From positions 62,001 to 126,000 of the forward strand of contig JAGASK010000029.1 in assembly GCA_017621815.1 (NCBI GenBank): a stretch of 64,000 nt of DNA, read 5' to 3'. Origin of the DNA: Lachnospiraceae bacterium (GTDB lineage Bacteria > Bacillota > Clostridia > Lachnospirales > Lachnospiraceae). The notes under the pieces are model-generated. The model was not told the origin of the DNA. It saw only the letters and a program-made list of their open reading frames with translations, and searched no databases. Position numbers and translations under genes: made by a program. This document shows positions 1 through 12,583 of the stretch, piece after piece; the first letter of the stretch is position 1, and each line of letters begins with the position of its first letter.

Positions 1-360
1 GATTATTTTGATTTATTGTGGCAGGTTCGGGCTGTGCAGATTCAGGTAATGCACAATTATCCTTATATGCTGCAGTTTTTAAACGAAAGCAAAAAGGAAA
101 ATGTCAAGGAAGCCTTAGAGGCTACGGAGGATAAAAGAGGAGTTCTGTCTCATCAGTATAATCAGATTATGCGGCGGGCCGATTTGAGCAGGTTAAAAAA
201 GGATGTGGACGTGGAACGGCTTACAAAAATGATAGATTTGACTGTAAACGGCCTTTTATCAGAGCAGTTCTTTAATGAATCTTTTCAGCCGGATTTATTT
301 GCTGAAGAGGCAAAACAATATTTTGCCATGTTAAAGAAACTGTCTTATGAGGAAGAATAA
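1..360 (+). CDS. TetR-type transcriptional regulator, C-terminal part (cut by window edge)
   Basis: The reading frame is open from base 1 to the TAA at 358-360, so the N-terminus, which would hold the helix-turn-helix, lies outside the window. The visible 119 residues are helical and end in an acidic tail (LSYEEE). They resemble the ligand-binding half of TetR/AcrR regulators, but without the DNA-binding domain this is only a moderate assignment. The next gene starts 15 bases downstream with its own Shine-Dalgarno (GAAAGG), so the two are probably co-transcribed. A TTG in frame at 16 is not a credible start, because codons 1-15 read on naturally. Confidence 0.5.
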   Translation, partial: DYFDLLWQVRAVQIQVMHNYPYMLQFLNESKKENVKEALEATEDKRGVLSHQYNQIMRRADLSRLKKDVDVERLTKMIDLTVNGLLSEQFFNESFQPDLFAEEAKQYFAMLKKLSYEEE

Positions 361-375
361 GAAAGGAATAGGAAA

Positions 376-1137
376 ATGAAAGAAACATTGTATACGATAC
401 CTTTAAATGATGCGGTGAATGCAGACGATGAATGTCCCTTTTGCTATATTGAAAGGGCGGTTGAGCAGGACTTAATGGATTTTGTATTAGGCTCAGGCTC
501 ATCTTACATGGAAAGTGATGTGAGGGATGCTACGGACAAGGCAGGATTTTGCAGGGCTCATTTTAAGAAGATGTTTGATTACGGAAATACTCTGGGCAAC
601 GGATGGATATTAAAAACCCATTATATGAGAATGAACAGGGAAATGGCTGAGCAGTTTAAAAGCTTTACCCCTTCCAAATCTTCCCTGATGGGGAAATTTA
701 AAAAGAATTCACAGCGTGTGAATCCTGTTGGCATGTGGGTGGAGGAAAAGGAAAATTCCTGTTACATCTGTAACCGTTTTGCCGATACTTATGAAAGATA
801 TATGGATACTTTCTTCTTTATGTACAAGAAGGATGAGGATTTCAGAAACAGAATTAAAAACAGCAAGGGTTTCTGCCTGCATCATTTCGGCGATTTATGT
901 GAGGCTTCCGAAACGAGGCTGAACGACAAGGAGAAAAAAGAGTTCTATCCGGCTATGTTTGAGTTGATGGAGAAGAATATGGCGCGGCTTCAGGAGGATG
1001 TGGACTGGCTGGTGGAAAAATTTGATTACAGGAATAAGGATGCGGACTGGAAGAATTCCAAAGATGCCATTCAAAGAGGAATGCAGAAGTTAAAGGGAGG
1101 ATATCCTGCCGACCCGGTATATAAGATGAATAAATAA
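376..1137 (+). CDS. DUF6062 family protein
   Basis: This 253-residue soluble protein has two Cys/His pairs of motifs. An N-terminal CPFC (about residues 21-24) is followed by CRAHF, and a second CYIC (about 128-131) is followed by CLHHF. The duplicated CxxC plus CxxH pattern suggests two metal-binding or redox modules and matches the family I know as DUF6062 in Lachnospiraceae. The function of that family is not established. It follows the TetR-type gene by 15 bases and is closed by a hairpin at 1155-1180. The start is supported by GGAATAGGAAA just upstream of the ATG at 376. Confidence 0.7.
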   Translation: MKETLYTIPLNDAVNADDECPFCYIERAVEQDLMDFVLGSGSSYMESDVRDATDKAGFCRAHFKKMFDYGNTLGNGWILKTHYMRMNREMAEQFKSFTPSKSSLMGKFKKNSQRVNPVGMWVEEKENSCYICNRFADTYERYMDTFFFMYKKDEDFRNRIKNSKGFCLHHFGDLCEASETRLNDKEKKEFYPAMFELMEKNMARLQEDVDWLVEKFDYRNKDADWKNSKDAIQRGMQKLKGGYPADPVYKMNK

Positions 1138-1154
1138 GAGACACAAAGCGGAAT

Positions 1155-1180
1155 TTGGGAGTGAATTAAAACACTCCCAA
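1155..1180 (+). terminator. Terminator hairpin after the DUF6062 gene, shared with the 3' end of spoVAC
   Basis: TTGGGAGTG (1155-1163) and CACTCCCAA (1172-1180) form a perfect 9-bp stem with an 8-nt loop, followed on the plus strand by TACTTTTAAT. The right arm encodes the last residues of the convergent spoVAC gene, and the spoVAC stop codon (1166-1168) lies in the loop. The weak T-run makes this a moderate terminator for the plus strand; on the minus strand no T-run follows. Confidence 0.65.
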
Positions 1181-1645
1181 TACTTTTAATATCCAATAGA
1201 TAAGGCCCAGCGCCCAGCTGGTAAAAATGCCGTACAGAATTACGGGACCGGCGATGGTGAAGATTTTGCATCCGATACCGAAAACCTGGCCTTCTTTTTT
1301 GTATTCTACAGCAGGGGATGCCACGGAGTTGGCAAAGCCCGTAATGGGAACGAGGGCGCCGGCTCCGCCGAATTTTACAATGGGCGCATAAAGGTTAAAG
1401 CCGGTTAAAAGCACACTGATAAGGACCAGAACTAAAGAGCAGAAGCTTCCTGCCATATCTTTATCCATACCCAGGCTGTTTTTTGCAAAATTAAGTAAAA
1501 ACTGCCCCAGCGAGCATATGATTCCGCCTACAAGAAAGGCTTTCAGCATCTGTAAAAAAAGATTATGGGCAGGAGTAATTTTTTTTACATATTCTTCATA
1601 GTCTTTTTCAAGTGAAATCTGCTCAGGAGATTTTTTATCATTCAT
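1166..1645 (-). CDS. spoVAC: Stage V sporulation protein AC
   Basis: SpoVAC is an inner-membrane subunit of the SpoVA channel. The channel loads dipicolinic acid into the forespore and releases it on germination. The 159-residue product has a charged N-terminus, then three or four hydrophobic segments and the family pattern VKFGGAGALVPITGFAN near residue 100. The ATG at 1645 is preferred over the ATG at 1651, because the AAGGA at 1653-1657 is 7 nt from the first and only 1 nt from the second. It lies on the opposite strand from the other spoVA genes of the window, alone between the DUF6062 and MBOAT genes, so it cannot share their transcript. Confidence 0.9.
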   Translation of the reverse strand: MNDKKSPEQISLEKDYEEYVKKITPAHNLFLQMLKAFLVGGIICSLGQFLLNFAKNSLGMDKDMAGSFCSLVLVLISVLLTGFNLYAPIVKFGGAGALVPITGFANSVASPAVEYKKEGQVFGIGCKIFTIAGPVILYGIFTSWALGLIYWILKVLGVF

Positions 1646-1713
1646 ACGCATTTCCTTTCCGATAAAGCTTACTTAATGCTTTTAAGGATTATATTTCCAC
1701 ATTTTATTTGTTT

Positions 1714-1719
1714 TATTCA
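1714..1719 (-). promoter_or_regulatory. Possible forespore -35 element upstream of spoVAC
   Basis: Read on the minus strand this is TGAATA, identical to the preferred sigma-G -35 hexamer, about 70 nt upstream of spoVAC. Seventeen bases further on is AAATATA, which matches the sigma-G -10 (CATACTA-like) poorly. It is listed only because the three other spoVA units have better promoters of the same kind. Confidence 0.25.
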
Positions 1720-1749
1720 TAATCTTAAGATTCTGATGAAGGTTGCTTC

Positions 1750-1778
1750 TTGTAGATTTTTGTAGAGAATGATAGAAT
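1750..1778 (+). promoter_or_regulatory. Sigma-A-like promoter for the MBOAT/SGNH pair
   Basis: TTGTAG (1750-1755), a 17-nt spacer and TAGAAT (1773-1778). A transcript would start near 1785. That excludes the longer MBOAT reading frame beginning at 1769 and supports the ATG at 1817. Confidence 0.45.
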
Positions 1779-1816
1779 CTTTAATACAAGGCAAAAGAAA
1801 AAGAAGGTTATATATT

Positions 1817-3193
1817 ATGATAAATTTTTCTGATTTGGAATTTATATTCCGGTTTTTACCGATATTTTTAATATTATATTATGTGGCTCCTGCGAAATAC
1901 AGGGATATGGTTCTCCTGGCAGGCAGCCTTGTGTTTTATGCGGTGGGAGAACCCGTCTTTCTGCTTCTGTTAATAGCCCTTACGTTTATAAATTATTTTA
2001 CAGGGAAAAAGGTTAAGGAGTATGGGAGCGGTTACAAAGTGCATAAGTGGCAGGAGGCAAAAAGAAAAAAGCTTATGGCAGCGGCGGTGATACTGGATGT
2101 AACAGTGCTTGCAGTCTTTAAGTTTTTGGGAACTTTTGTGAGCAGTTCACTGCTGCCTCTTGGCATTAGTTTTTATATTTTTAAAATGATTTCTTATCAG
2201 GTGGATTTATATAAAGGAGAAATCTGGGAAAAAACCGATTTTAAATCTACTGCTCTTTATTTTACCATGTTTCCCCAGGTGGTTTCAGGGCCGATTATGC
2301 GGTATAACGAAGGGGAATTTGATGTCAGAAGAAATTATTCGTTGGAGCAGTTTGAAGACGGACTTAAGTACTTTGTGATTGGTCTTGGCATGAAGGTGCT
2401 TCTGGCGGACCGGCTTGCTATTTTGTGGAATGATTTGCAGATGATAGGCTTCCAAAGTATTTCAACGCCTCTTGCCTGGTTTGGCGCCGTGGGTTATTCC
2501 CTGCAGCTTTATTTTGATTTCTGGGGATATTCGCTTATGGCATCGGGGCTGCTTGTGATGATGGGCTTTGATTTTATCGAAAATTTTCATCATCCTTATG
2601 CATCAAGAAGCATCAGCGAATTTTACAGGAGATGGCATATGACCCTGGGGAGCTTTTTCCGTGATTATGTTTATATTCCCATGGGCGGAAGCCGGTGCAG
2701 AAAAAGCAGGGTGCTTTTAAATCTTGCAGTGGTCTGGCTTCTTACGGGAATCTGGCACGGCAACGGAGTGAACTTTATCCTGTGGGGAGTGATACTGGGA
2801 GCTTTGATTATATTTGAAAAGTTATGGTATGGAAAATATCTTTCCAAAATCCCCGTAATTGGAAATCTGTATGTTATTTTACTGATTCCTCTGACCTGGG
2901 TGGTCTTTGCGATTACCGATTTGAAACAGCTCGGCATTTATTTCGGAAGGCTGTTTCCTTTTATCGGCGGTGCGGGTATTGCTGTTAATTCCCGGGATAT
3001 TATTAAATATTCGCGAAACTATGGGGGATTGTTCCTTGCAGGAATACTGCTTTGTATTCCGGGAGTATTCAATTTTTATGAAAAACACAGGAAAAATCCG
3101 GTTGTGATTCTTTTGCTTGCCATAATTTTCTGGTATTGCGTTTATTTCATGGCAAGCAGTGCGGGTAATCCTTTTATGTATTTGAAATTCTAG
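1817..3193 (+). CDS. MBOAT family O-acyltransferase (AlgI/DltB type)
   Basis: Membrane-bound O-acyltransferases move acyl groups, usually acetyl, across the membrane onto cell-wall or exopolysaccharide acceptors. The 458-residue product is almost entirely membrane-spanning. It carries the family segments WHMTLGSFFRDYVYIPMGG (near residue 275) and LLTGIWHGNG, whose His (about residue 314) is the conserved catalytic histidine. The start at 1817 has an AGAAGG upstream and fits a promoter at 1750-1778. It is followed 53 bases later by an SGNH-domain protein. This pairing is typical of two-step O-acylation systems such as DltB/DltD or AlgI/AlgX-like sets. The acceptor polymer cannot be told from the sequence. 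Confidence 0.9.
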   Translation: MINFSDLEFIFRFLPIFLILYYVAPAKYRDMVLLAGSLVFYAVGEPVFLLLLIALTFINYFTGKKVKEYGSGYKVHKWQEAKRKKLMAAAVILDVTVLAVFKFLGTFVSSSLLPLGISFYIFKMISYQVDLYKGEIWEKTDFKSTALYFTMFPQVVSGPIMRYNEGEFDVRRNYSLEQFEDGLKYFVIGLGMKVLLADRLAILWNDLQMIGFQSISTPLAWFGAVGYSLQLYFDFWGYSLMASGLLVMMGFDFIENFHHPYASRSISEFYRRWHMTLGSFFRDYVYIPMGGSRCRKSRVLLNLAVVWLLTGIWHGNGVNFILWGVILGALIIFEKLWYGKYLSKIPVIGNLYVILLIPLTWVVFAITDLKQLGIYFGRLFPFIGGAGIAVNSRDIIKYSRNYGGLFLAGILLCIPGVFNFYEKHRKNPVVILLLAIIFWYCVYFMASSAGNPFMYLKF

Positions 3194-3227
3194 GGAGCTT
3201 TGCAATTCCAGGGAGCTTTGCGATTTT
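3192..3227 (+). repeat. Tandem 18-bp direct repeat
   Basis: AGGGAGCTTTGCAATTCC (3192-3209) is followed directly by AGGGAGCTTTGCGATTTT (3210-3227), 14 of 18 bases identical. The first copy overlaps the stop codon of the MBOAT gene, and the pair fills the space before the SGNH gene's ribosome binding site (AAGGAG at 3231-3236). Confidence 0.7.
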
Positions 3228-3246
3228 GGGAAGGAGAATGGTTTAG

Positions 3247-4443
3247 ATGAAGTTCATCAGAAAGAGCCCGCTTTTTGCGATAATTCTGTGTACGGGATTT
3301 TTATTTACCCTGGCAGCCATAGGCGGAAAAGACAATATATACAGCAGTCAGGAATATCATCCTTTGAAAGCGCCTGTTTTGGCTATTGTATTTACAGGAA
3401 TAAACGATGAGATATATCCCTGGCAGATTTTTACAAAGGATGTACAGGAAACTTCTGCGCAGCCGGAGACGGAAGAAAATCTGCAGAAAGCGGATGCGGG
3501 CAATCAGCCGGTAACAGAAGAAGGAGATTTGCAGGAAGCGGATGCGGGCAATCAGCCGGTAACAGAAGAAGGGGATTTGCAGGAAGCGGATGCGGAAAAT
3601 CAGCCGCTGACCGGAGAAAATGCATCAGCCGGAATGCCTTCAGGCGGCAGAAATGAAGAAATGCCGGGAGCGGAAGCAGACGAAGGGGCAATAACGGCAG
3701 TTATGCCTACGGCAGTGCCGGAAGCAGTTCCTGAACCCTCTTCCGGGGAGGAAGAAAAGGCGCGTCCCACACCCTTCAGGGAAAGTACAAAGGAAGAGTA
3801 TTTGAATCATATATCAGCGGATATATACGGAGACGTGGGAATTATAAATGCAGCCTCTTATGAATTCGCGCAGGTGGATGAAAGTTATTTTGATGATGCT
3901 CTTTTTATCGGTGATTCCAGAACCGTAGGGCTCAGGGATTACACGGATTTGTCGGAGCATGCCGATTTTATGTGCGAAACTTCTTTAACAATTTATAAGG
4001 TGATGGAAGAAGACTTTGCGGGCATGGGAAGCGTGGAGGAAGCATTAAATGCAAAAGATTACGGCAAAATATATATTATGGTAGGTATTAATGAGCTGGG
4101 CAGGGGCACTACGGAAGATTTTATGGAAAAATATACGGAGGTAATCGATACTCTTCATGAGCTTAAGCCTGATGCAAAGATTTTTATTCAGGGAATTATG
4201 AGAGTGTCGGGAAAGAAAAATTCTGGGGATGCCATTTTCAATAACAGCAATATTAATGCCAGAAATAATGCCATTGCTACCCTGGCTGACAACCGGCAGA
4301 TATTTTACATTGATGTCAATGAAGCGGTATGTGATGAAGAAGGTAATCTGACAGCGGACTATACTTTTGACCAGATTCACCTTCTGGGTGTTTATAATGA
4401 TTTATGGAAGCAGTTTCTGCTTGCTCATGGCGTAGTTGAATAA
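3247..4443 (+). CDS. SGNH/GDSL-type hydrolase-fold protein, membrane anchored, with repeat linker
   Basis: Probable extracellular partner of the MBOAT acyltransferase, carrying out the final acyl transfer or hydrolysis on the surface polymer. One N-terminal membrane segment (about residues 9-27) is followed by a roughly 120-residue acidic, Pro/Ala/Glu-rich linker with 16-residue repeats, then the SGNH domain. Visible blocks are FIGDSR (nucleophile Ser near 224), GINELG (block III, near 282) and FDQIH (catalytic Asp/His near 375-378). The linker would hold the domain away from the membrane. The start has AAGGAG upstream. The gene is 53 bases after the MBOAT gene in the same direction, so an operon is likely. 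Confidence 0.85.
   Translation: MKFIRKSPLFAIILCTGFLFTLAAIGGKDNIYSSQEYHPLKAPVLAIVFTGINDEIYPWQIFTKDVQETSAQPETEENLQKADAGNQPVTEEGDLQEADAGNQPVTEEGDLQEADAENQPLTGENASAGMPSGGRNEEMPGAEADEGAITAVMPTAVPEAVPEPSSGEEEKARPTPFRESTKEEYLNHISADIYGDVGIINAASYEFAQVDESYFDDALFIGDSRTVGLRDYTDLSEHADFMCETSLTIYKVMEEDFAGMGSVEEALNAKDYGKIYIMVGINELGRGTTEDFMEKYTEVIDTLHELKPDAKIFIQGIMRVSGKKNSGDAIFNNSNINARNNAIATLADNRQIFYIDVNEAVCDEEGNLTADYTFDQIHLLGVYNDLWKQFLLAHGVVE
3490..3630 (+). repeat. 48-bp tandem coding repeat in the SGNH linker
   Basis: Two nearly identical 48-nt units (3490-3537 and 3538-3585, one difference seen) and a third, diverged unit (3586-3630) encode ADAGNQPVTEEGDLQE-type 16-mers. The unit is a multiple of three, so copy-number change by slippage would keep the frame and alter linker length. 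Confidence 0.85.
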
Positions 4444-4457
4444 AGTTGATTTTAAAA

Positions 4458-4487
4458 TGAATAAAAACCTTCAGATAAGGGAAACTA
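4458..4487 (+). promoter_or_regulatory. Candidate sigma-G promoter of spoVAD
   Basis: TGAATA (4458-4463), a 17-nt spacer and GAAACTA (4481-4487). The -35 is the preferred forespore hexamer; the -10 matches CATACTA at five of seven positions. The predicted start near 4494 lies in the loop of the hairpin 4463-4518. Confidence 0.45.
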
Positions 4488-4518
4488 AAGGAAAAAGTAA
4501 TCTTATCTGGAGGTTTTT
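4463..4518 (+). promoter_or_regulatory. Terminator-like hairpin that encloses the spoVAD ribosome binding site
   Basis: Arms 4463-4479 and 4502-4518 pair over 17 bp with one G-U pair (4471/4510). The right arm contains the whole Shine-Dalgarno GGAGG (4509-4513) and ends in TTTTT, directly before the ATG at 4520. It can act as an intrinsic terminator for the SGNH transcript and as a lock on spoVAD translation in read-through RNA. Confidence 0.8.
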
Positions 4519-4519
4519 T

Positions 4520-5557
4520 ATGGAAAGCAGCAGCGGAGCATTTTTTGAACAGGGTAAACAGAGTATCAAGATACCGGTGCCGGTCTATATACGGGCCAGC
4601 GCCAGTGTGGCAGGAACCAAGGAAGGACAGGGGCCATTTGCCGACTTATTTGATGTAGTGGGTGTGGACGATAAGTTCGGCTGTGATACATGGGAAGAGG
4701 CGGAAAGTACACTGCAAAAAGAGGCACTGCAGCTGGCAATCGGAAAGGCGGGACTTAAAAATGAGGATATTCGCTTTTTGTTTGCCGGGGATTTACTGGG
4801 GCAGTCAATCGCCAGCAGCTTCGGGCTGGCTTCCTTTCAAATCCCTTTGCTTGGCATGTACGGCGCCTGCTCTACCTGCGGCCTTTCCTTATCGGCGGCA
4901 ACAATTATGATTGCAGGCGGCATGGCGCAGTATGCAGCCTGTGTCACCTCCAGTCATTTTGCCAGTGCGGAAAAGGAATTCCGTTTTCCGCTGGGTTATG
5001 GAAGCCAGAGACCTCTTTCCGCAACCTGGACGGTAACGGGAAGCGGCGCTTTTGTGGTGAGCAGCGAAAAGGGCAGCAAGGACAGGGCAATGATTACAGG
5101 CATTACTATAGGAAAGATTATGGATTTCGGATTAAAGGATTCCATGAATATGGGCGCATGTATGGCTCCGGCAGCATGCAGTACCATTTATCAGCACCTT
5201 GTTGATTTCGGCAGAACACCTTCCGATTATGATAAGATTATCACAGGAGACCTTGGAAAGGTGGGACAGAAGGTATTGCTTGATATGATGAGAGAAAAAG
5301 GCATGGATATTGAAAAGCAGCATATGGACTGCGGAATTGAAATTTATGATGAGAGCCAGGATGCCCATGCCGGCGGCTCCGGCTGCGGCTGCAGCGCCAT
5401 TACCCTTTCGGCATATATTTTAAAGCAGCTGGAGGAAGGAAAATGGAAAAGGGTGCTTTTTGTGCCTACGGGAGCGCTGCTCAGCAAGACAAGCTTTAAT
5501 GAAGGACAGAGTATTCCGGGGATTGCACACGGAGTGGAGCTGGTGAGCTGTAAGTAG
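4520..5557 (+). CDS. spoVAD: Stage V sporulation protein AD
   Basis: SpoVAD is the soluble, dipicolinic-acid-binding component of the SpoVA complex on the forespore inner membrane and has a thiolase-like fold. The 345-residue product shows family segments AGDLLGQ, YGACST, SSHFASAEKEFRFPLGYG, the QRPLSATWTVTGSGA stretch, and a C-terminal GGSGCGCSA. An upstream in-frame ATG at 4436 overlaps the SGNH gene and has no Shine-Dalgarno. The ATG at 4520 has GGAGG at 4509-4513 and begins where SpoVAD proteins usually do, so it is used here. That ribosome binding site is inside a 17-bp hairpin, and a sigma-G-like promoter starts in the hairpin loop. Confidence 0.95.
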   Translation: MESSSGAFFEQGKQSIKIPVPVYIRASASVAGTKEGQGPFADLFDVVGVDDKFGCDTWEEAESTLQKEALQLAIGKAGLKNEDIRFLFAGDLLGQSIASSFGLASFQIPLLGMYGACSTCGLSLSAATIMIAGGMAQYAACVTSSHFASAEKEFRFPLGYGSQRPLSATWTVTGSGAFVVSSEKGSKDRAMITGITIGKIMDFGLKDSMNMGACMAPAACSTIYQHLVDFGRTPSDYDKIITGDLGKVGQKVLLDMMREKGMDIEKQHMDCGIEIYDESQDAHAGGSGCGCSAITLSAYILKQLEEGKWKRVLFVPTGALLSKTSFNEGQSIPGIAHGVELVSCK

Positions 5558-5650
5558 TGGAAAAGTGATAGAAATAACTCAGAAAGGCTAGCCCTCCTGC
5601 CGGTAATTTGGTACAATAAAAAGCAGAAAACCAGAAAGTCGGGGAGCGGC

Positions 5651-6733
5651 ATGAAAATGAAAAAAGCATGGAAACGGATTATTATCATTGTTATCATATT
5701 AATAATAGTTTTTGGCGCATATGCAGGGTATGTGTTCACTTCTTATTACAGGCTTCCTGACAAATTGACTCTTGAAGTCATAAGAAATGGAGAGAATTCT
5801 TATTTTGATGAAGACGAGGTCTTTTCCACAAAACGGCCTTATTTTATTATGACTTATAATATCGGTTTCGGAGCTTACCGGCCTGATTACAGTTTTTTTA
5901 TGGATGGAGGAAAATCCTCCTGGGGTAAGGATGAGGAAAGCGTAACAGCAGCAGTTTGCGGAGCGGGTGAAATTATCAATAATGTAAATCCTGATTTTGT
6001 GCTTTTGCAGGAGGTGGATACAGACGGCACCCGTTCTTACCATATTAATGAACTGGAGCTTTTGAATCAGTTTGTAAAGGGCTATTATTATGATTTTGCC
6101 CAGAATTACGATTCGCCGTTTCTGTTTTTCCCGCCATGGGAGCCTCATGGCGCCAATCAGGCAGGAATCGTGACCTATTCCAGGGCTGAAATTACGGATA
6201 CTATGCGCAGAAGCCTGCCCATATCGGAATCCTTCAGCAAGCTGGTGGATCTTGACAGGTGTTATTCCATTTCCAGAATTCCTTTGGAAGAAGGAAAAAT
6301 GCTGTGCCTTTATAATATGCATATGTCGGCATACGGAAGCAGTGATGAAATCCGGGAAGGACAGCTTGCCATGCTTTATGAGGACATGACAGCGGATTAT
6401 AAGGAAGGCAATTATGTTATCTGCGGAGGCGATTTTAACCACAATCTGAAAACCGATGACAGGGAAGATGCGCCGGAGTGGGCTTATCCTTTTCCCAGGG
6501 AAAGCCTGCCGGAAGGCTTCAGAATGGCAATCGACGAAGCCAATGAGGATGATATTGTGCATAACAGCTGCCGGAATGCCAATGAGCCGTACAATGAAGC
6601 CACAACCTACACGGTAACACTGGATGGATTTATTGTTTCTGATAATGTAACCGTGAATTATTACAGTAATATGGACTGGGGATATGCATTTTCCGACCAT
6701 GACCCGGTGATTATGCAGTTTATGCTGGATTAG
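5651..6733 (+). CDS. Membrane-anchored endonuclease/exonuclease/phosphatase family protein
   Basis: This 360-residue protein has a single N-terminal membrane segment (about residues 8-27, Ile/Val-rich) and then a DNase I-like metal-dependent phosphoesterase domain facing outward. Family motifs are visible in order: MTYNIGF (about 76), LLQEVD with the metal-ligand Glu (about 121), YNMHMSA, CGGDFNHN (about 262) and the terminal SDHDPV with the catalytic Asp-His. Substrate is unknown; secreted members act on nucleic acids, phospholipids or inositol phosphates. GGGGAG lies just upstream of the ATG at 5651. Its place between spoVAD and spoVAA may be chance. Confidence 0.85.
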   Translation: MKMKKAWKRIIIIVIILIIVFGAYAGYVFTSYYRLPDKLTLEVIRNGENSYFDEDEVFSTKRPYFIMTYNIGFGAYRPDYSFFMDGGKSSWGKDEESVTAAVCGAGEIINNVNPDFVLLQEVDTDGTRSYHINELELLNQFVKGYYYDFAQNYDSPFLFFPPWEPHGANQAGIVTYSRAEITDTMRRSLPISESFSKLVDLDRCYSISRIPLEEGKMLCLYNMHMSAYGSSDEIREGQLAMLYEDMTADYKEGNYVICGGDFNHNLKTDDREDAPEWAYPFPRESLPEGFRMAIDEANEDDIVHNSCRNANEPYNEATTYTVTLDGFIVSDNVTVNYYSNMDWGYAFSDHDPVIMQFMLD

Positions 6734-6789
6734 CGGATAATTGCGAAACGGAAAGTTATGAAAATATTAAGGCTGCAATTATCTGCATG

Positions 6790-6820
6790 GGAATAGAAAT
6801 GGAAAGAAAAGGTTATACTA
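6790..6820 (+). promoter_or_regulatory. Candidate sigma-G promoter of spoVAA-spoVAB
   Basis: GGAATA (6790-6795), an 18-nt spacer and TATACTA (6814-6820). The -10 matches the forespore consensus CATACTA at six of seven positions and the -35 matches TGAATA at five of six. The start codon of spoVAA is 28 nt further on. Confidence 0.5.
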
Positions 6821-6848
6821 GCCTCAAAAATGAAAGGTGTGAGGCAGT

Positions 6849-7478
6849 ATGGCAAGTACAGTGATTTATCTGAAAGCAGAGCAGAATGCGGAGGTAATGG
6901 GTGAGCACGTATGTGTGAAGGACATTGCCTCCCTTTATTGTGCGGATAAAAATATATGCAGCAGGGCGGAGGAGGTTAAAGTATACGAGTTTCATGAAGG
7001 AGAAAAGAAACGTCAGGTTATTGATATTTTGAAGGTGATAGAGCTGATTGAAAAGGAATGTTCCGGCATCAGAATTGAAAATATCGGAGAGAATGCCGTA
7101 TTGATTGAGCTGGTGGAGGTTAACGAGCATAAAGGACCCATGCAGCTTCTGAAACTGATTTTTGTGGCATGCATCAGCTTTTTCGGAACGGGTTTTACTA
7201 TTATGGCTTTTCATAATGATATCAGCATCAATAAAATATTTTCCAGAGTTTATGAAATGGTAATGGGATATGCTTCTGATGGCTGCAGCATTCTGGAGAT
7301 ATCCTATTCCATAGGGCTTGCGGTAGGAATTGTAGTGTTTTTTAATCATATCGGCGGCAGGAGAATTACCAAAGACCCAACGCCTATTGAGGTGGAAATG
7401 CGGGTTTATGAATCCGAGGTAAATAAGGCTCTTATAGAAACCGCTGACAGGGAGGGAAAAACCATTGATGTTTCTTAA
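6849..7478 (+). CDS. spoVAA: Stage V sporulation protein AA
   Basis: SpoVAA is a membrane subunit of the dipicolinic acid channel. The 209-residue product has a soluble N-terminal domain of about 95 residues, then two or three membrane segments (FVACISFFGTGFTIMAF around 115, and SIGLAVGIVVFFNHIG around 160) and the family's PTPIEVEMRVYE near the C-terminus. It overlaps spoVAB by 11 bases and is preceded by a sigma-G-like promoter. Confidence 0.9.
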   Translation: MASTVIYLKAEQNAEVMGEHVCVKDIASLYCADKNICSRAEEVKVYEFHEGEKKRQVIDILKVIELIEKECSGIRIENIGENAVLIELVEVNEHKGPMQLLKLIFVACISFFGTGFTIMAFHNDISINKIFSRVYEMVMGYASDGCSILEISYSIGLAVGIVVFFNHIGGRRITKDPTPIEVEMRVYESEVNKALIETADREGKTIDVS

Positions 7479-7962
7479 GTGGATTTTGCTGGCAATATGC
7501 GGTTTTTCCTTCGGTTTGCTTTCCTCGGCGGGGGTTTTTACAGTTCTGGCTTCCGTAGGCCTGATTCCCAGATTTGCAGGAAAAATGCATGTGGCAAAAA
7601 AGGTGTTCGCATTAGAAGAGGCAGTAGTTTTGGGAACCATAGCGGGAGGCTGCTTAAGTGTTTTTCCCGATTATGGAAAAATCGGCTCTTATGTGCTGGC
7701 CCATGAATTTTTCGGGGTGGAAACGGTGCTGATCTGGAAGTGGGCAGGCAGAAGTCTGCTGGCAGCAGGCGGCTTTTTTTCAGGTATTTTTGTAGGCTGC
7801 CTTGCTTTTGCAATAGCAGAGATGCTGGATTCCATTCCCATATTTTCCAGAAGAATCGGTTTTCGCCACGGCCTTGGGGTAGCAATTACGGCTGCCGCCT
7901 TCGGAAAGCTGATTGGAAGCCTGCTTTATTTTGGGGAAAGGATATTTTTGTCAGGATATTGA
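7468..7962 (+). CDS. spoVAB: Stage V sporulation protein AB
   Basis: This 164-residue, strongly hydrophobic protein has about five membrane segments and the SpoVAB pattern LIPRFAGKMHVAKKVFALEEAVVLG (given in part, residues about 33-57). The ATG at 7468 lies inside the end of spoVAA, so translation is likely coupled; a TTG one codon upstream is less likely. In Bacillus, spoVAA and spoVAB begin the spoVA operon; here they form a two-gene unit separated from AC, AD and AE. Confidence 0.88.
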   Translation: MFLKWILLAICGFSFGLLSSAGVFTVLASVGLIPRFAGKMHVAKKVFALEEAVVLGTIAGGCLSVFPDYGKIGSYVLAHEFFGVETVLIWKWAGRSLLAAGGFFSGIFVGCLAFAIAEMLDSIPIFSRRIGFRHGLGVAITAAAFGKLIGSLLYFGERIFLSGY

Positions 7963-8021
7963 AAAAAGAGAAAAAGTTGATTACAATAATAAGGATGCAT
8001 GTGTAGATGGGAGGAATGGAT

Positions 8022-8252
8022 ATGCGTTCTATGGAATTCAAAATGGAGCGTCCGGGTCTTCTTCATGAGGGAGATGAAATTACGGTGACAGAAGGAGTTC
8101 TGCCCAGCAACTATTATTATACCATTGACCCGTCCCTTGCCATGTCGGGAAATATTCCCTTCAGGGAGAGACTGAAGTCACGTTCCGGCAAGGTGATAAG
8201 TGTTATCCAGAATGAAAGAGGATTTTATGTAACGGCTGAGTTTGATGAGTGA
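8022..8252 (+). CDS. Small unrecognised protein (76 aa)
   Basis: I do not recognise this short protein. It is polar and contains NYYYTIDPS and a C-terminal GKVISVIQNERGFYVTAEFDE-like stretch that reads as a small beta-rich domain. The reading frame extends to an ATG at 8007, but the GGGAGG at 8008-8013 lies inside that extension and is 8 nt from the ATG at 8022, so 8022 is the better start. It sits between spoVAB and ridA, in the same direction as both. Confidence 0.6.
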   Translation: MRSMEFKMERPGLLHEGDEITVTEGVLPSNYYYTIDPSLAMSGNIPFRERLKSRSGKVISVIQNERGFYVTAEFDE

Positions 8253-8301
8253 TTGCAGGACAATCCGTCAAAGACCGGAAAAATAAAGGAGGATATTTAA
8301 G

Positions 8302-8679
8302 ATGTTAAAGAAAGTAGCAACAGATAAGGCTCCCGCAGCTATCGGCCCTTATTCCCAGGGAATTATTGCCAACGGTTTATTATTCGCGTCAGGGCAGATT
8401 CCCATTATTCCCGCAACAGGTGAAATTGCACAGGGAGATATTACCGTGCAGGCAAAACAGGCAATCGAGAATGTGGGCGAGATTTTAAAGGAAGCCGGAA
8501 CGGATTACGACCATGTGGTAAAAACCACCTGTTTTCTTGCGGACATGGCAGACTTTGCAGCATTTAACGGTGTTTACGAGCAGTATTTTACAGGAAAGCC
8601 CGCAAGAAGCTGTGTAGCTGTCAGGCAGCTTCCCAAGAATGTGCTTTGTGAAGTGGAAGTAATTGCCAGTCTGGACTAG
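8302..8679 (+). CDS. ridA: RidA family reactive enamine/imine deaminase
   Basis: RidA hydrolyses reactive enamine and imine intermediates such as 2-aminoacrylate, made by PLP enzymes in the cytosol. The 125-residue length is typical. The family segments AIGPYSQG (near 13), FASGQIP, the catalytic-Arg motif GKPARSCVAVRQLP (near 97) and the terminal CEVEVIA are all present. AAAGGAGG (8288-8295) precedes the ATG by 6 nt. Confidence 0.95.
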   Translation: MLKKVATDKAPAAIGPYSQGIIANGLLFASGQIPIIPATGEIAQGDITVQAKQAIENVGEILKEAGTDYDHVVKTTCFLADMADFAAFNGVYEQYFTGKPARSCVAVRQLPKNVLCEVEVIASLD

Positions 8680-8711
8680 TCAATAGGAAAAATTACATCC
8701 GGGGAAAAGAC

Positions 8712-9209
8712 ATGAATAATATTATATTAACAGGAATGCCGGGAGCGGGGAAGAGTACGGTAGGCGTAGTGCTTGCTAAAAAACTGGGTTACAGCTTTCT
8801 TGACTCCGACCTGGTTATTCAGGAAAAAACAGGGAAACTGCTTTACCAGCTCATAGAAGAGAAGGGTGAAGCAGGTTTTCTTATGCTGGAAAATGAAATG
8901 AATGCTTCCTTAGAGCCGGACTGCGCCGTGATTGCCACAGGCGGCAGTGCGGTCTATGGAAAGGAAGCTATGGAGCACTTTAAGCAGATTGGAAAGGTAA
9001 TTTATTTAAAACTGCCCTATGAAGAGCTTAAGGAGAGGCTTGGCGATTTGCATGAGCGGGGAGTGGTTTTGAAGGAAGGCTTTACCCTGCTTGATTTGTA
9101 TGAGGAAAGAACACCCTTATATGAGAAATATGCCGATATTGTTATAGACTGCGAAGAAAAGCCTATCAGGGAAATTGTAGAGGAAATAAAATTAAAATAT
9201 TATAGGTAA
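8712..9209 (+). CDS. Shikimate-kinase-like P-loop protein with an altered substrate site
   Basis: The fold is that of a nucleoside-monophosphate-type kinase. GMPGAGKST (residues 7-15) is the P-loop, FLDSD gives the Asp pair used by shikimate kinases, a lid-like LHERG follows, and RTPLYEKYAD is the conserved C-terminal Arg motif. Two substrate-site features differ from AroK: the FRxxE arginine that binds the shikimate carboxylate reads FLMLE, and the GGG loop reads GGS. It is therefore named by fold rather than as aroK. No other aromatic pathway gene is nearby. The last codons (Y, R, stop) lie in the terminal repeat of the palindromic element that follows. Confidence 0.75.
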   Translation: MNNIILTGMPGAGKSTVGVVLAKKLGYSFLDSDLVIQEKTGKLLYQLIEEKGEAGFLMLENEMNASLEPDCAVIATGGSAVYGKEAMEHFKQIGKVIYLKLPYEELKERLGDLHERGVVLKEGFTLLDLYEERTPLYEKYADIVIDCEEKPIREIVEEIKLKYYR

Positions 9210-9416
9210 TTGCGAAACCCAAAACTGTGGCAATATTCAAACAATATTTCTATTCAAATCCTGTTCCGCTGGACACTCCGATGAGCCTCAGCGCTTAAAA
9301 ACGTGTTCAGCAGAGGCTTCCACGTTTTTATGAGTCTCATCTGCGCAGCGTAAAAAGGCTTTTCACAGAAATATTGTCTGAATATTCGTAAGTTTATGAG
9401 TTTCGCAATTACCTAT
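9202..9416. repeat. 215-nt nested palindromic element (MITE-like or structured RNA)
   Basis: The ends are a perfect 17-bp inverted repeat, 9202-9218 and 9400-9416 (left arm begins ATAGGTAATTGCG). Inside are further paired arms: 9231-9251 with 9367-9387 (19 of 21), 9280-9290 with 9331-9341 (10 of 11), and 9296-9305 with 9321-9330 (10 of 10). The element can fold into one long rod. It holds no reading frame of note and fills the space between the kinase-like gene and the EamA gene. Confidence 0.8.
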
Positions 9417-9447
9417 CAAAATATCAGAATATAAGGAGCAGTACAAA

Positions 9448-10338
9448 ATGAAAAAAGTTTCACTAAAGAGCAGTTTTCTGCTGTTTATGGCAGCCTTTAT
9501 CTGGGGTGTTGCTTTTGTTGCCCAAAGTGTAGGCATGGACTATATGGGGCCTTTAAGCTTTAACGGTGCAAGGTTTTTGATGGGAAGCGCAGTGCTTGTG
9601 CCGGTAATTGTTTTCAGGAGAAAAAAGAATAAAGAGCAGAATATTCCGGCTGCGGATACGAAAACCACTGTCTTTGGGGGAATCTGCTGCGGACTTGCGC
9701 TGTGCGGGGCGGCTTTGCTTCAGCAGTACGGAATTATGTATACTACCGTAGGAAAAGCAGGTTTTATTACCACGCTTTATATTATTCTGGTTCCCTTCTT
9801 CGGCGTTTTTTTGAAAAAAAGGATACCGGGAAAGGTATGGATTGGCGCAGTGATTGCGGCCTTTGGCATGTATCTGCTTTGTATGAGTGAAAAACTGTCA
9901 CTGAGCAGGGGTGATGCGCTTGTTTTTGCCTGTGCAGTTGTGTTTTCAGTACATATATTAGTGATTGATTATTTTTCGCCCAAAGCGGATGGTGTGGAGT
10001 TATCCTGCATCCAGTTTTTAACGGCGGGGATCATCGGAAGTATAGGCGCTGTTATTTTTGAACAGCCTCATCTGAAGAATTTTATTGACGGTATCATTCC
10101 GCTGGCTTATGCCGGTATTTTATCAAGCGGCGTGGCATATACGTTGCAGGTTATCGGACAAAAAGGTATGGACCCTACTGTTGCATCCCTGATATTAAGC
10201 CTTGAATCCGTGGTTTCCATGCTTGCGGGCTGGGTAATCCTGGGACAGGCGTTAACGGGAAGAGAGCTTATGGGATGCCTGCTTGTTTTCTGTGCAGTTA
10301 TTCTTGTGCAGCTGCCGGAGAAAAAAAGCGGTTTTTAA
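9448..10338 (+). CDS. EamA family (drug/metabolite transporter superfamily) permease
   Basis: This 296-residue protein has ten predicted membrane segments in two homologous halves. The first half opens with AAFIWGVAFVAQ and includes LQQYGIMYTTVGKAGFITTLY; the second includes the GVAYTLQVIGQKGMDPTVASLILSLESV region typical of EamA carriers. Substrates range from amino acids to nucleosides and cannot be predicted here. AAGGAG at 9433-9438 supports the ATG at 9448. It directly follows the palindromic element and precedes spoVAE. Confidence 0.9.
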   Translation: MKKVSLKSSFLLFMAAFIWGVAFVAQSVGMDYMGPLSFNGARFLMGSAVLVPVIVFRRKKNKEQNIPAADTKTTVFGGICCGLALCGAALLQQYGIMYTTVGKAGFITTLYIILVPFFGVFLKKRIPGKVWIGAVIAAFGMYLLCMSEKLSLSRGDALVFACAVVFSVHILVIDYFSPKADGVELSCIQFLTAGIIGSIGAVIFEQPHLKNFIDGIIPLAYAGILSSGVAYTLQVIGQKGMDPTVASLILSLESVVSMLAGWVILGQALTGRELMGCLLVFCAVILVQLPEKKSGF

Positions 10339-10344
10339 ATGAAA

Positions 10345-10374
10345 TGAATGCAAAATGAAATTCAGGACACACTA
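10345..10374 (+). promoter_or_regulatory. Candidate sigma-G promoter of spoVAE
   Basis: TGAATG (10345-10350), a 17-nt spacer and CACACTA (10368-10374), five of six and six of seven matches to the forespore consensus. The spoVAE start is 40 nt downstream. This is the best of the spoVA promoter matches in the window. Confidence 0.55.
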
Positions 10375-10413
10375 TATGCATAAGAAATCAAATTGTTATT
10401 GCAGGAGGTTGTT

Positions 10414-10770
10414 ATGGATTATTTGAATGCATTCTGGGTAGGCGGACTGATTTGCGCACTGGTACAGATACTGGCGGAGAAAACCAAGCTTATGCCGGGC
10501 AGAATCATGGTGCTTTTAGTATGTACAGGGGCTGTGCTGAATTTTATCGGCGTTTATCAGCCTTTTATGGAATTTGCCGGAGCCGGGGCTTCTGTTCCCC
10601 TTTTGGGATTTGGGAATACACTTATGAAGGGCGTAAAGGAAGCCGTGGATGAACAGGGCTTTATGGGACTTTTTGCAGGAGGCTTTAAAGCCGGAGCGGT
10701 GGGAACCTCAGCGGCTCTCATATTCGGATATCTGGCAAGTCTGATTTTTAATCCCAAAATGAAAAAATAA
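10414..10770 (+). CDS. spoVAE: Stage V sporulation protein AE (SpoVAEb type)
   Basis: This 118-residue membrane subunit of the SpoVA dipicolinic acid channel is homologous to SpoVAC. It has three or four hydrophobic segments and the shared FAGAGASVPLLGFGN motif (about residues 50-64). The ATG at 10414 has AGGAGG at 10403-10408; an upstream TTG in frame is not needed. It ends 10 bases before the aminopeptidase gene, so the aminopeptidase may be read from the forespore promoter as well. Confidence 0.92.
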   Translation: MDYLNAFWVGGLICALVQILAEKTKLMPGRIMVLLVCTGAVLNFIGVYQPFMEFAGAGASVPLLGFGNTLMKGVKEAVDEQGFMGLFAGGFKAGAVGTSAALIFGYLASLIFNPKMKK

Positions 10771-10780
10771 GGAGGTTATT

Positions 10781-12583
10781 ATGATACAGGAGAGATTGTC
10801 AAAATTAAGGGCAGCAATGAGAAATGCGGAAATTGACTGCTATATTATTCCCACCTCTGATTATCACAACAGTGAATATGTCAGCGAATATTTTATGGTG
10901 CGGAAATATTTCAGCGGCTTTACGGGGTCAGCGGGCACCCTGGCTGTGCTGCAGGATAAAGCGGCTTTGTTCACGGACGGGCGTTATTTTATCCAGGCTG
11001 CAAAGGAGCTTGAAGGAAGCGGCATTACCCTTATGAAAATGGGGGAGCCCGGAGTGCCTGCGTTAAGTGAATACGTGGAGCAGGAACTGAAGGAAGGACA
11101 AAACCTTGGATTTGACGGCAGGGTCATTACTGCGGGGGAAGGCCTTGCCTATGAAAAAATTGCGGAAAAAAAGAAGGGCAGAGTAATCTGGAATCAGGAT
11201 TTGGCTGAAGGCATCTGGGAAGAGCGTCCGGAGCTTGCTTTTACGCCTGTTTTCGTGCTTGAGGAATGTTGCAGCGGGGAAAGCACCGAAAGCAAATTGA
11301 AGCGCCTTCGTGAAAAGATGAAGGAAGAAAAGGCACAGATACATATATTGACTACTTTGGACGATATTGCATGGCTGTTTAACCTCCGTGCTGACGACGT
11401 GGAAAGCTGCCCTGTTCTCTTATCCTATGCGGTGATTACCCGGGAGGAAGCGTATCTGTTTGCGGGAGAAAGTGCTTTTGATGAGAAAGTAAGAGCGTAT
11501 CTTGGGGCAAATAATATTACCCTTAAGCCTTATGATGATTTTTATACATATGTTGCCGAAACAGTAAAAAAGGAGCCGGAGCTTAAGCTGCTTGTCTGTG
11601 AAAAAAGAATCAATTACAGGCTGAAAAAAGAAATCGGAGACAGTGTGCAGGTGATTGATAAGGCCAACCCGACCACGCTGATGAAGGCTGTTAAAAATGC
11701 GGTGGAACAGGAGAATCTGCGGAAAGCCCATCTGATGGACGGCATTGCAGTAACAAAATTTATGTTCTGGCTTAAGAAGAATGTGGGGAAAATTCCTATG
11801 ACTGAAATCAGTGCGGCGGAATATCTGGAAAGCCTGCGGGCGCAGAATCCTTCCTTTATTGAGCTGAGCTTTCCTACAATCTGCGCTTACGGCGCTAACG
11901 GAGCCATTATTCATTACAGCGCCACACCGGAGAATTTCTCCGAAATACAGGCAAAAGGTATGCTGATGGTGGACAGCGGCGGCCATTATTATGAAGGCAG
12001 CACCGATATTACCAGAACCTTTATCCTGGGAGAAATTACAGAGGAAATGAAACAGCATTTTACCCTTACTGCAAGGGCTATGCTGCGGCTTAAGAGCGCA
12101 AAATTCCTGGAGGGCTGTAAGGGGATAAACCTGGATATTCTGGCAAGGGGAGTATTCTGGGAAAAGGGACTTGATTATAAGCACGGAACGGGACATGGTG
12201 TAGGATATCTTCTGAATGTTCATGAAGGCCCTAACAGCTTCCGGCATAAGCCTCTTGCAGGCAGCGATGAAAACTGGGCATTTGAAGAGGGCATGGTGAC
12301 TACTGATGAGCCGGGCATTTACATAGAAGGAAGCCATGGCGTGAGAATTGAAAATGAGCTGCTGTGCCGTAAAGATGAAAATAATGAGTTCGGACAGTTT
12401 ATGTGCTTTGAGGATTTGACCTATGTACCCATTGACCTTGACGGTATTGATGCATCGGCTATGGAGGAAAGTGAAAAGAGGACTCTGAACCTGTATCATA
12501 AATTTGTATTTGAAAAGCTTGCGCCTTTCTTTGAAGGAGAGGAGCTTGATTTCCTGAAAAAAGCTACAAGGGAAATCATTTAA
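10781..12583 (+). CDS. pepP: M24 family Xaa-Pro aminopeptidase
   Basis: A dimetal aminopeptidase that removes N-terminal residues before proline. The 600-residue form has two creatinase-like N-terminal domains and a C-terminal pita-bread domain. Metal ligands are visible: the Asp of MVDSGGHY, the Asp of STDITRTF, the His of KHGTGHGVG, the Glu of DEPGIY and the Glu of RIENELL. The extra C-terminal region with the DLTYVPIDLDGID segment is characteristic of the long form. GGAGG (10771-10775) precedes the ATG. Downstream is a 143-nt AT-rich gap before the YesN-type regulator. Confidence 0.93.
   Translation: MIQERLSKLRAAMRNAEIDCYIIPTSDYHNSEYVSEYFMVRKYFSGFTGSAGTLAVLQDKAALFTDGRYFIQAAKELEGSGITLMKMGEPGVPALSEYVEQELKEGQNLGFDGRVITAGEGLAYEKIAEKKKGRVIWNQDLAEGIWEERPELAFTPVFVLEECCSGESTESKLKRLREKMKEEKAQIHILTTLDDIAWLFNLRADDVESCPVLLSYAVITREEAYLFAGESAFDEKVRAYLGANNITLKPYDDFYTYVAETVKKEPELKLLVCEKRINYRLKKEIGDSVQVIDKANPTTLMKAVKNAVEQENLRKAHLMDGIAVTKFMFWLKKNVGKIPMTEISAAEYLESLRAQNPSFIELSFPTICAYGANGAIIHYSATPENFSEIQAKGMLMVDSGGHYYEGSTDITRTFILGEITEEMKQHFTLTARAMLRLKSAKFLEGCKGINLDILARGVFWEKGLDYKHGTGHGVGYLLNVHEGPNSFRHKPLAGSDENWAFEEGMVTTDEPGIYIEGSHGVRIENELLCRKDENNEFGQFMCFEDLTYVPIDLDGIDASAMEESEKRTLNLYHKFVFEKLAPFFEGEELDFLKKATREII

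Follow-up and report, generated by a model that had tools for sequence, protein, structure and literature searches.

In a Lachnospiraceae genome and its relatives, the spacer of the promoter that precedes the forespore gene spoVAD is complementary to the gene's own Shine-Dalgarno (SD) region, and an alignment of leaders from the genus shows that this complementarity has been kept by compensatory changes. Judging from sequence comparison and predicted folds, we consider it likely (with a probability of about 0.77) that the element acts as a protein-free RNA insulator, by which spoVAD mRNA made through read-through would stay untranslated and which forespore transcription would bypass. The window, as used below, is the whole 64-kb stretch of DNA that was analysed, and A1 is an alignment of 28 of the 35 spoVAD leaders of the genus. 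The features of the window are as follows.

1166-1651, minus strand: spoVAC (profile match)
1769-3193, plus strand: MBOAT O-acyltransferase gene, upstream and co-directional (open reading frame; PF03062, 6.9e-22)
3247-4443, plus strand: GDSL/SGNH hydrolase gene, likely source of read-through (open reading frame; PF13472, 3.5e-17)
4459-4463, plus strand: -35-like GAATA (TGAATA from 4458), identified by a G[ACT]ATA conserved in A1 and by spacing
4463-4479, plus strand: left arm of the hairpin, the anti-SD (sequence, fold, covariation, inverted-repeat scan)
4481-4487, plus strand: -10-like GAAACTA, its CTA invariant and the preceding A nearly invariant in A1
4494, plus strand: base in the loop where forespore transcription is predicted to begin, the seventh past the -10
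4502-4518, plus strand: right arm of the hairpin (sequence, fold, covariation)
4509-4513, plus strand: spoVAD SD GGAGG within the right arm (sequence; anti-SD duplex -10.0 kcal/mol)
4514-4519, plus strand: T6 run filling the SD-ATG gap and pairing with the left arm's A run, all six T invariant in the 28 A1 rows
4520-5557, plus strand: spoVAD, 345 aa (NF006160, 465.5 bits vs a cut-off of 402)
6849-7478: spoVAA (profile match)
7465-7962: spoVAB (profile match)
10393-10770: spoVAE (profile match)

The two arms form 17 pairs, one of them G-U (T4471-G4510), around a 22-nt loop, and GGAGG is buried in the stem, followed by the T6 run and then by the ATG at 4520. A sequence-only reading of this DNA had described the 17-bp hairpin with its buried SD and T-run, as well as a promoter-like string, and all of these lie exactly where it had placed them; its naming of the gene agrees with the NF006160 match above the cut-off, TIGR02845 falling just under its own (403.6 vs 411.8). 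The predicted fold of a 121-nt leader RNA reaches -26.7 kcal/mol (z -3.39; as good in 0/200 shuffles), and the hairpin is one of 14 inverted repeats in the window (at least 16 nt, distance at most 70, exact seed of 8). Window positions 1-12000 gave no match to Rfam 15 at the gathering score. Folding of both transcripts in silico, proposed earlier as a check, yielded the expected difference for the window leader, i.e., a predicted SD opening cost of 18.7 kcal/mol in the read-through RNA vs 4.0 kcal/mol in the native one.

The left arm (4463-4479) and the 17-nt promoter spacer (4464-4480) occupy the same stretch but for an offset of one base. We equate the two because the -35 and -10 boxes flank the arm at a near-constant distance: among the 32 leaders (of 35) that could be parsed, the spacer between G[ACT]ATA and the A-rich CTA box measures 17 nt in 30 leaders and 18 nt in the other 2. 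Since this conserved GMATA-N17-box arrangement flanks the left arm, the native transcript is expected to start in the loop. The consensus for forespore promoters combines a GNATA-like -35, 17-18 nt and a -10 resembling CATnnTA (sigma-G) or GGnRAnAnTW (sigma-F), and GAAACTA matches the former only partially and the latter partially too. A slightly looser promoter pattern is not enriched in the genome (12 matches vs 27 for the reversed pattern), and the string was dropped as stand-alone evidence; because it proves nothing by itself, the promoter call rests on conservation and fixed spacing. Hence, of the earlier claim of a sigma-G promoter, the presence, conservation and fixed spacing of TGAATA-N17-GAAACTA stand, while a strict assignment to sigma-G does not, the -10 match being partial, and polymerase carrying either sigma-F or sigma-G may use this promoter. 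The promoter of the C. difficile spoVAC operon is described as nearer to the SigF consensus, yet under the control of both SigF and SigG (PMC7438776).

The genus of the source genome includes Parablautia muri and P. intestinalis, and spoVAD was found in 35 of its 36 genomes searched. Six leaders with indels or lost pairing (L016, L017, L022, L025, L030, and L031) were left out of A1, as was L035, which has a different start codon and a strong hairpin (0/300 shuffles). Conservation and covariation in relatives had been named as a check on the hairpin, and its arms do co-vary across the 28 aligned leaders: 449 of 457 cells are paired (98.2%), 11 compensatory cells fall in 3 pairs, and the covariation score was reached by 0/500 shuffles, 7 of the 17 pairs being invariant. 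The number of pairs with double changes (3) is unremarkable, as the same count arose in 71/500 shuffles. G-U occupies 55/457 cells, and pairing amounts to 98.2% on the sense strand vs 86.2% on the antisense strand; since the G-U cells pair on the sense strand and drop out on the antisense, the selected structure is a sense-strand RNA. With native RNA taken to begin at the seventh base past the -10, the predicted median cost of opening the SD in 32 leaders is 16.0 kcal/mol for read-through vs 4.2 kcal/mol for native transcripts. Little gap is predicted for two leaders with an insertion, L016 (6.5 vs 5.3 kcal/mol) and L025 (7.7 vs 5.3 kcal/mol), and the leader of P. intestinalis (L030), which does not pair and had a different start assigned, gave 2.4 vs 0.6 kcal/mol.

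In the window, spoVAD is solitary and separate from the other spoVA genes, and the stop codon of the SGNH gene lies 19 nt before the hairpin. The spoVA genes (AC, AD, AA, AB, and AE) are spread across 10 kb on both strands with unrelated genes between them and form no single operon; of 15 loci from other families of the order, 14 have spoVAD right behind a spoVAC-like end (L036-L050, by eye). An in-frame ATG at 4457, which would extend SpoVAD, was rejected, being absent in many A1 rows (which have, e.g., CGAATA or GCATA there) and lacking an SD by eye. The N-terminal half of the SGNH protein carries near-identical repeats of about 16 residues (QPVTEEGDLQEADAGN; window about 3470-3600), and in five genomes (L084, L085, L088, L089, and L096, near 2330-2400) the start region of the neighbouring operon's MBOAT gene likewise pairs with the sequence upstream of it.

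With the longest nearby open frame taken as the upstream neighbour, 32/35 loci of the genus have a co-directional one, the three divergent cases being L015, P. muri (L022) and P. intestinalis (L030). The identity of the upstream gene varies among the genomes that keep the hairpin. Both P. muri (L022/L110) and P. intestinalis (L030/L112) have lost the pairing and kept the promoter-like element (by eye) next to a divergent neighbour; the two losses are probably one event, since the divergent neighbourhood is similar in both (by eye). L015/L098 has a divergent gene as its nearest long neighbour and yet retains the hairpin; in L015 the hairpin may be immediately preceded by the end of a short co-directional frame. 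Pairing loss thus affects 2/3 divergent vs 1/32 co-directional loci (p 0.015, kinship ignored). Loss of the hairpin in an unchanged spoVAD context, which the sequence-only reading had named as evidence against itself, was encountered in no clean case: L031, the one co-directional locus counted as a loss, no longer pairs at the ATG, and its hairpin is present but set apart from the start codon by an insertion (by eye). Three genomes share a related insert containing CAAATTTGTGCNTGC ahead of the spoVAD ATG: in L022/L110 (P. muri) and L031 it sits in the gap between promoter and ATG, and L053 has it upstream of the ATG. The insert resembles a dispersed element, and a longer form of the pattern, with up to 3 mismatches, was not found in the window.

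For a wider survey, the start region (-20 to +6) was scored for pairing with the 76 upstream bases (-100 to -25), shuffled versions of which served as background. At a threshold of at most 5/500 shuffles, 29/35 spoVAD loci of the genus pass, and three of the six failing ones come near (L009 12/500, L017 19/500, and L018 7/500); elsewhere in Lachnospiraceae 19/73 pass and 54/73 are not significant. These loci are related (the L052 and L149 leaders are identical), 108/109 could be scored (all except L054), and a few starts may be wrong (e.g., L030 and L121). In a survey with 300 shuffles the choice of start looks wrong in some loci (e.g., L124, L125, and L145), and L130 and L139 had no start. 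A gene-wide survey covered 594 genes (at least 100 aa, good SD) from the window and 80 named loci, the best 80 of 515 matches; pairing weaker than -14 kcal/mol was counted as not passing without shuffles, and the threshold of 2/200 shuffles was passed by 46/77 spoVAD genes vs 17/517 other genes of the same loci. Fisher's test gives p = 1e-33, a value that overstates the case because many named loci are close kin. Among the 17 other genes, 5 are the MBOAT gene of the spoVAD region and 1 is spoVAE. The pairing of the window spoVAD was matched by 0/300, 1/200 and 0/500 shuffles in the three surveys.

The spoVAD positives of other genera have different sequences in the same geometry. For nine lineage representatives, hand-picked from positive or near-positive loci, the gene's own upstream region was the best pairing partner in 8/9, and the total was matched by 0/20000 permutations. 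By eye, the left arm in L120, L056 and L123 is the -10 region, and the right arm lies over the start codon or the SD.

Other forespore genes were surveyed in Lachnospiraceae with one locus per genus, taking the best 30 matches among 60 genomes per gene family and a threshold of 2/200 shuffles. Among these best 30 matches, spoVT passes in 16/30, and L276 repeats the spoVAD layout, with GTATA, the spacer AAATGCCTCCATTTACA, GATACTA and later TAAATGGAGGAATTTTTT ahead of the ATG; the pairing of spoVT in the source genome itself is weak (9/200). In other families of Clostridia, 2/30 spoVT loci pass 3/300 shuffles with a promoter that appears similar by eye (the best 30 from 123 genomes that had a match, one family being represented several times, and a slightly wider scored region). 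For sigG, 5/29 loci pass (30 fetched, one without a usable start), all matches lying under the cut-off of the NCBI sigG model (best 440 vs 457 bits). The start region of the sigG-like gene of the source genome (L206) pairs with a promoter-like upstream region (-22.3 kcal/mol, 0/200 shuffles), a possible counterpart of the Bacillus subtilis sigG read-through hairpin considered below. In Lachnospiraceae, spoIIR (3/30) and SASP genes (2/30) barely exceed the background among the best 30 matches each, and the pairing energies of spoVAC leaders, for which energies only were obtained, are mostly weak.

The promoter pattern also led to a DUF1540 gene of the source genome (PF07561; L322 1401-1510, C51:156751-156860) preceded by GAATA-N17-CATACTA. 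Its -10 region is complementary to the start codon region, 9/29 loci of the genus pass 3/300 shuffles (30 fetched, one unscored), and pairing-preserving changes are seen by eye in some. In spoVAE leaders (L133, L134, L141, L146, L147, and L159), promoter boxes like GGCAGAAACTA and a sequence like GGAGTATGCC before the ATG are partly complementary by eye, and in L147 an upstream ACTATGG is complementary to CCATAGT (by eye).

Several other explanations deserve weighing. The hairpin and its T-run might be a bifunctional intrinsic terminator that stops transcription from the upstream operon, with burial of the SD incidental or additional, a reading that overlaps with the insulator and that we regard as rather unlikely. 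It draws on the A-run/stem/T6 layout of 4463-4519 and on the invariant T-run, and loss beside a divergent gene fits it equally; nevertheless, the loop has 22 nt and a terminator scan allowing loops of 3-8 did not list the hairpin (some termination would still be compatible with this), the SD-ATG gap would have to double as the T-run, the upstream gene varies among genomes that keep the hairpin, and at least five T follow the stem in only 2/9 lineages (L001 and L126; by eye). Because the other 7/9 lineages pair without a T-run after the stem, termination is unlikely as a common function across lineages, and it may add to the translation block in this genus. The earlier suggestion that read-through would end at the hairpin fares poorly on these grounds (the loop, the scan and the T-run missing in 7/9 lineages by eye). 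An improbable alternative is that the hairpin controls translation of a native spoVAD mRNA starting at an unseen promoter upstream of 4463, much as the small sigG RBS hairpin is described to form in native sigG mRNA (PMC5942855); this sits poorly with the conserved GMATA-N17-box around the left arm, from which the native start is expected in the loop, and with the promoter-like element being kept where the hairpin is lost (L022 and L030; by eye).

The overlap with the promoter-like element would also suit a DNA inverted repeat serving as operator for a repressor or for SpoVT, itself a forespore regulator. We hold this to be very improbable, given that the sequence drifts while the pairing is kept, that the 55/457 G-U cells would be mismatches in DNA, and that other genera hold different sequences at the same place. 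Chance, or complementarity as a by-product of what an SD and a promoter look like, does occur at the same threshold in the 17/517 other genes; its probability here appears negligible in view of the 29/35 loci of the genus at 5/500 shuffles or fewer, the covariation in A1 and the spoVT genes of other Clostridia, where a similar promoter mostly comes without pairing (2/30).

We therefore return to the RNA insulator. Transcripts entering from the SGNH and MBOAT genes would contain both arms, and in the folded RNA the SD would be hidden and hardly any translation would occur; sigma-F or sigma-G transcripts would begin near 4494 without the left arm, leaving the SD open for translation in the forespore. 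The outcome would be that a forespore protein is kept out of cells that merely transcribe through spoVAD. Sigma factors contact the -35 and the -10 and hardly read the spacer, which would thus be free to act as an anti-SD. Of the insulation put forward by the sequence-only reading, the part in which read-through RNA hides the SD and RNA from the internal promoter exposes it is backed by covariation, spacing and loss beside a divergent gene, and the termination component is not.

The element is of a known kind, since homing-endonuclease genes of phage T4 operate in this manner and a comparable hairpin is proposed for B. subtilis sigG. The T4 early/late RNAs had already been invoked as a precedent: in I-TevI, I-TevII, I-TevIII, segB and Aeh1 mobE the RBS is described as sequestered only in early/middle transcripts from upstream, the late promoter inside omitting sequence needed for the structure (PMC2988022). 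T4 concerns phage early/late timing, whereas spoVAD is a chromosomal gene under compartment-specific sigma factors. The closest precedent, absent from the earlier reading, is B. subtilis sigG (spoIIIG), where a hairpin of 20+ pairs, which RNA started at PsigG is unable to form, is proposed to keep read-through RNA from PspoIIG untranslated (PMC5942855). Both are forespore genes downstream of a co-directional operon; spoVAD differs in gene and sequence and in having a left arm that coincides with the promoter spacer, a pairing that co-varies across the genus and a geometry that recurs at both spoVAD and spoVT in further members of the family. The small sigG RBS hairpin of Bacilli likewise occludes the RBS of a forespore gene (PMC5942855).

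Transposase leaders of insertion sequences form a related system, and that of IS10 gives protection against outside transcription. The passage on IS200 makes no mention of read-through, and no passage on IS10 protection from outside transcription was found in the accessible text of PMC5006887. Among the literature matches listed, mostly outside subscription journals, there was no report of such a hairpin in a spoVAD or spoVT leader; within that literature we have not seen described spoVAD and spoVT as bearers, the spacer as an arm, co-varying arms, a loss of pairing next to divergent genes, or the recurrence in the same family with different sequences.

The same trick looks recurrent beyond one Bacillus spore gene, as far as the leaders compared here can tell. 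More tentatively, and at somewhat less than even odds, the forespore promoters of Lachnospiraceae could be a store of anti-start RNA that insulates the forespore programme in general and needs no protein to do so. The stretch complementary to the gene's own SD or start codon would be the spacer in spoVAD and spoVT, and the -10 plus flanking bases in DUF1540, in spoVAD of other lineages and perhaps in spoVAE, and any transcript entering through the promoter would silence itself; the sequence would turn over fast, and the device would be lost where no gene reads in. Sporulation relies on the absence of forespore proteins from growing cells. Their exclusion is generally attributed to sigma factors, and the element suggests a second layer, in which accidentally transcribed promoter DNA would carry a lock for its own gene. 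If so, the hairpin proposed for sigG would be one instance of a widespread device, genomes with divergent neighbours would provide natural controls, and annotation would have to reckon with promoter spacers that can hold selected RNA information.
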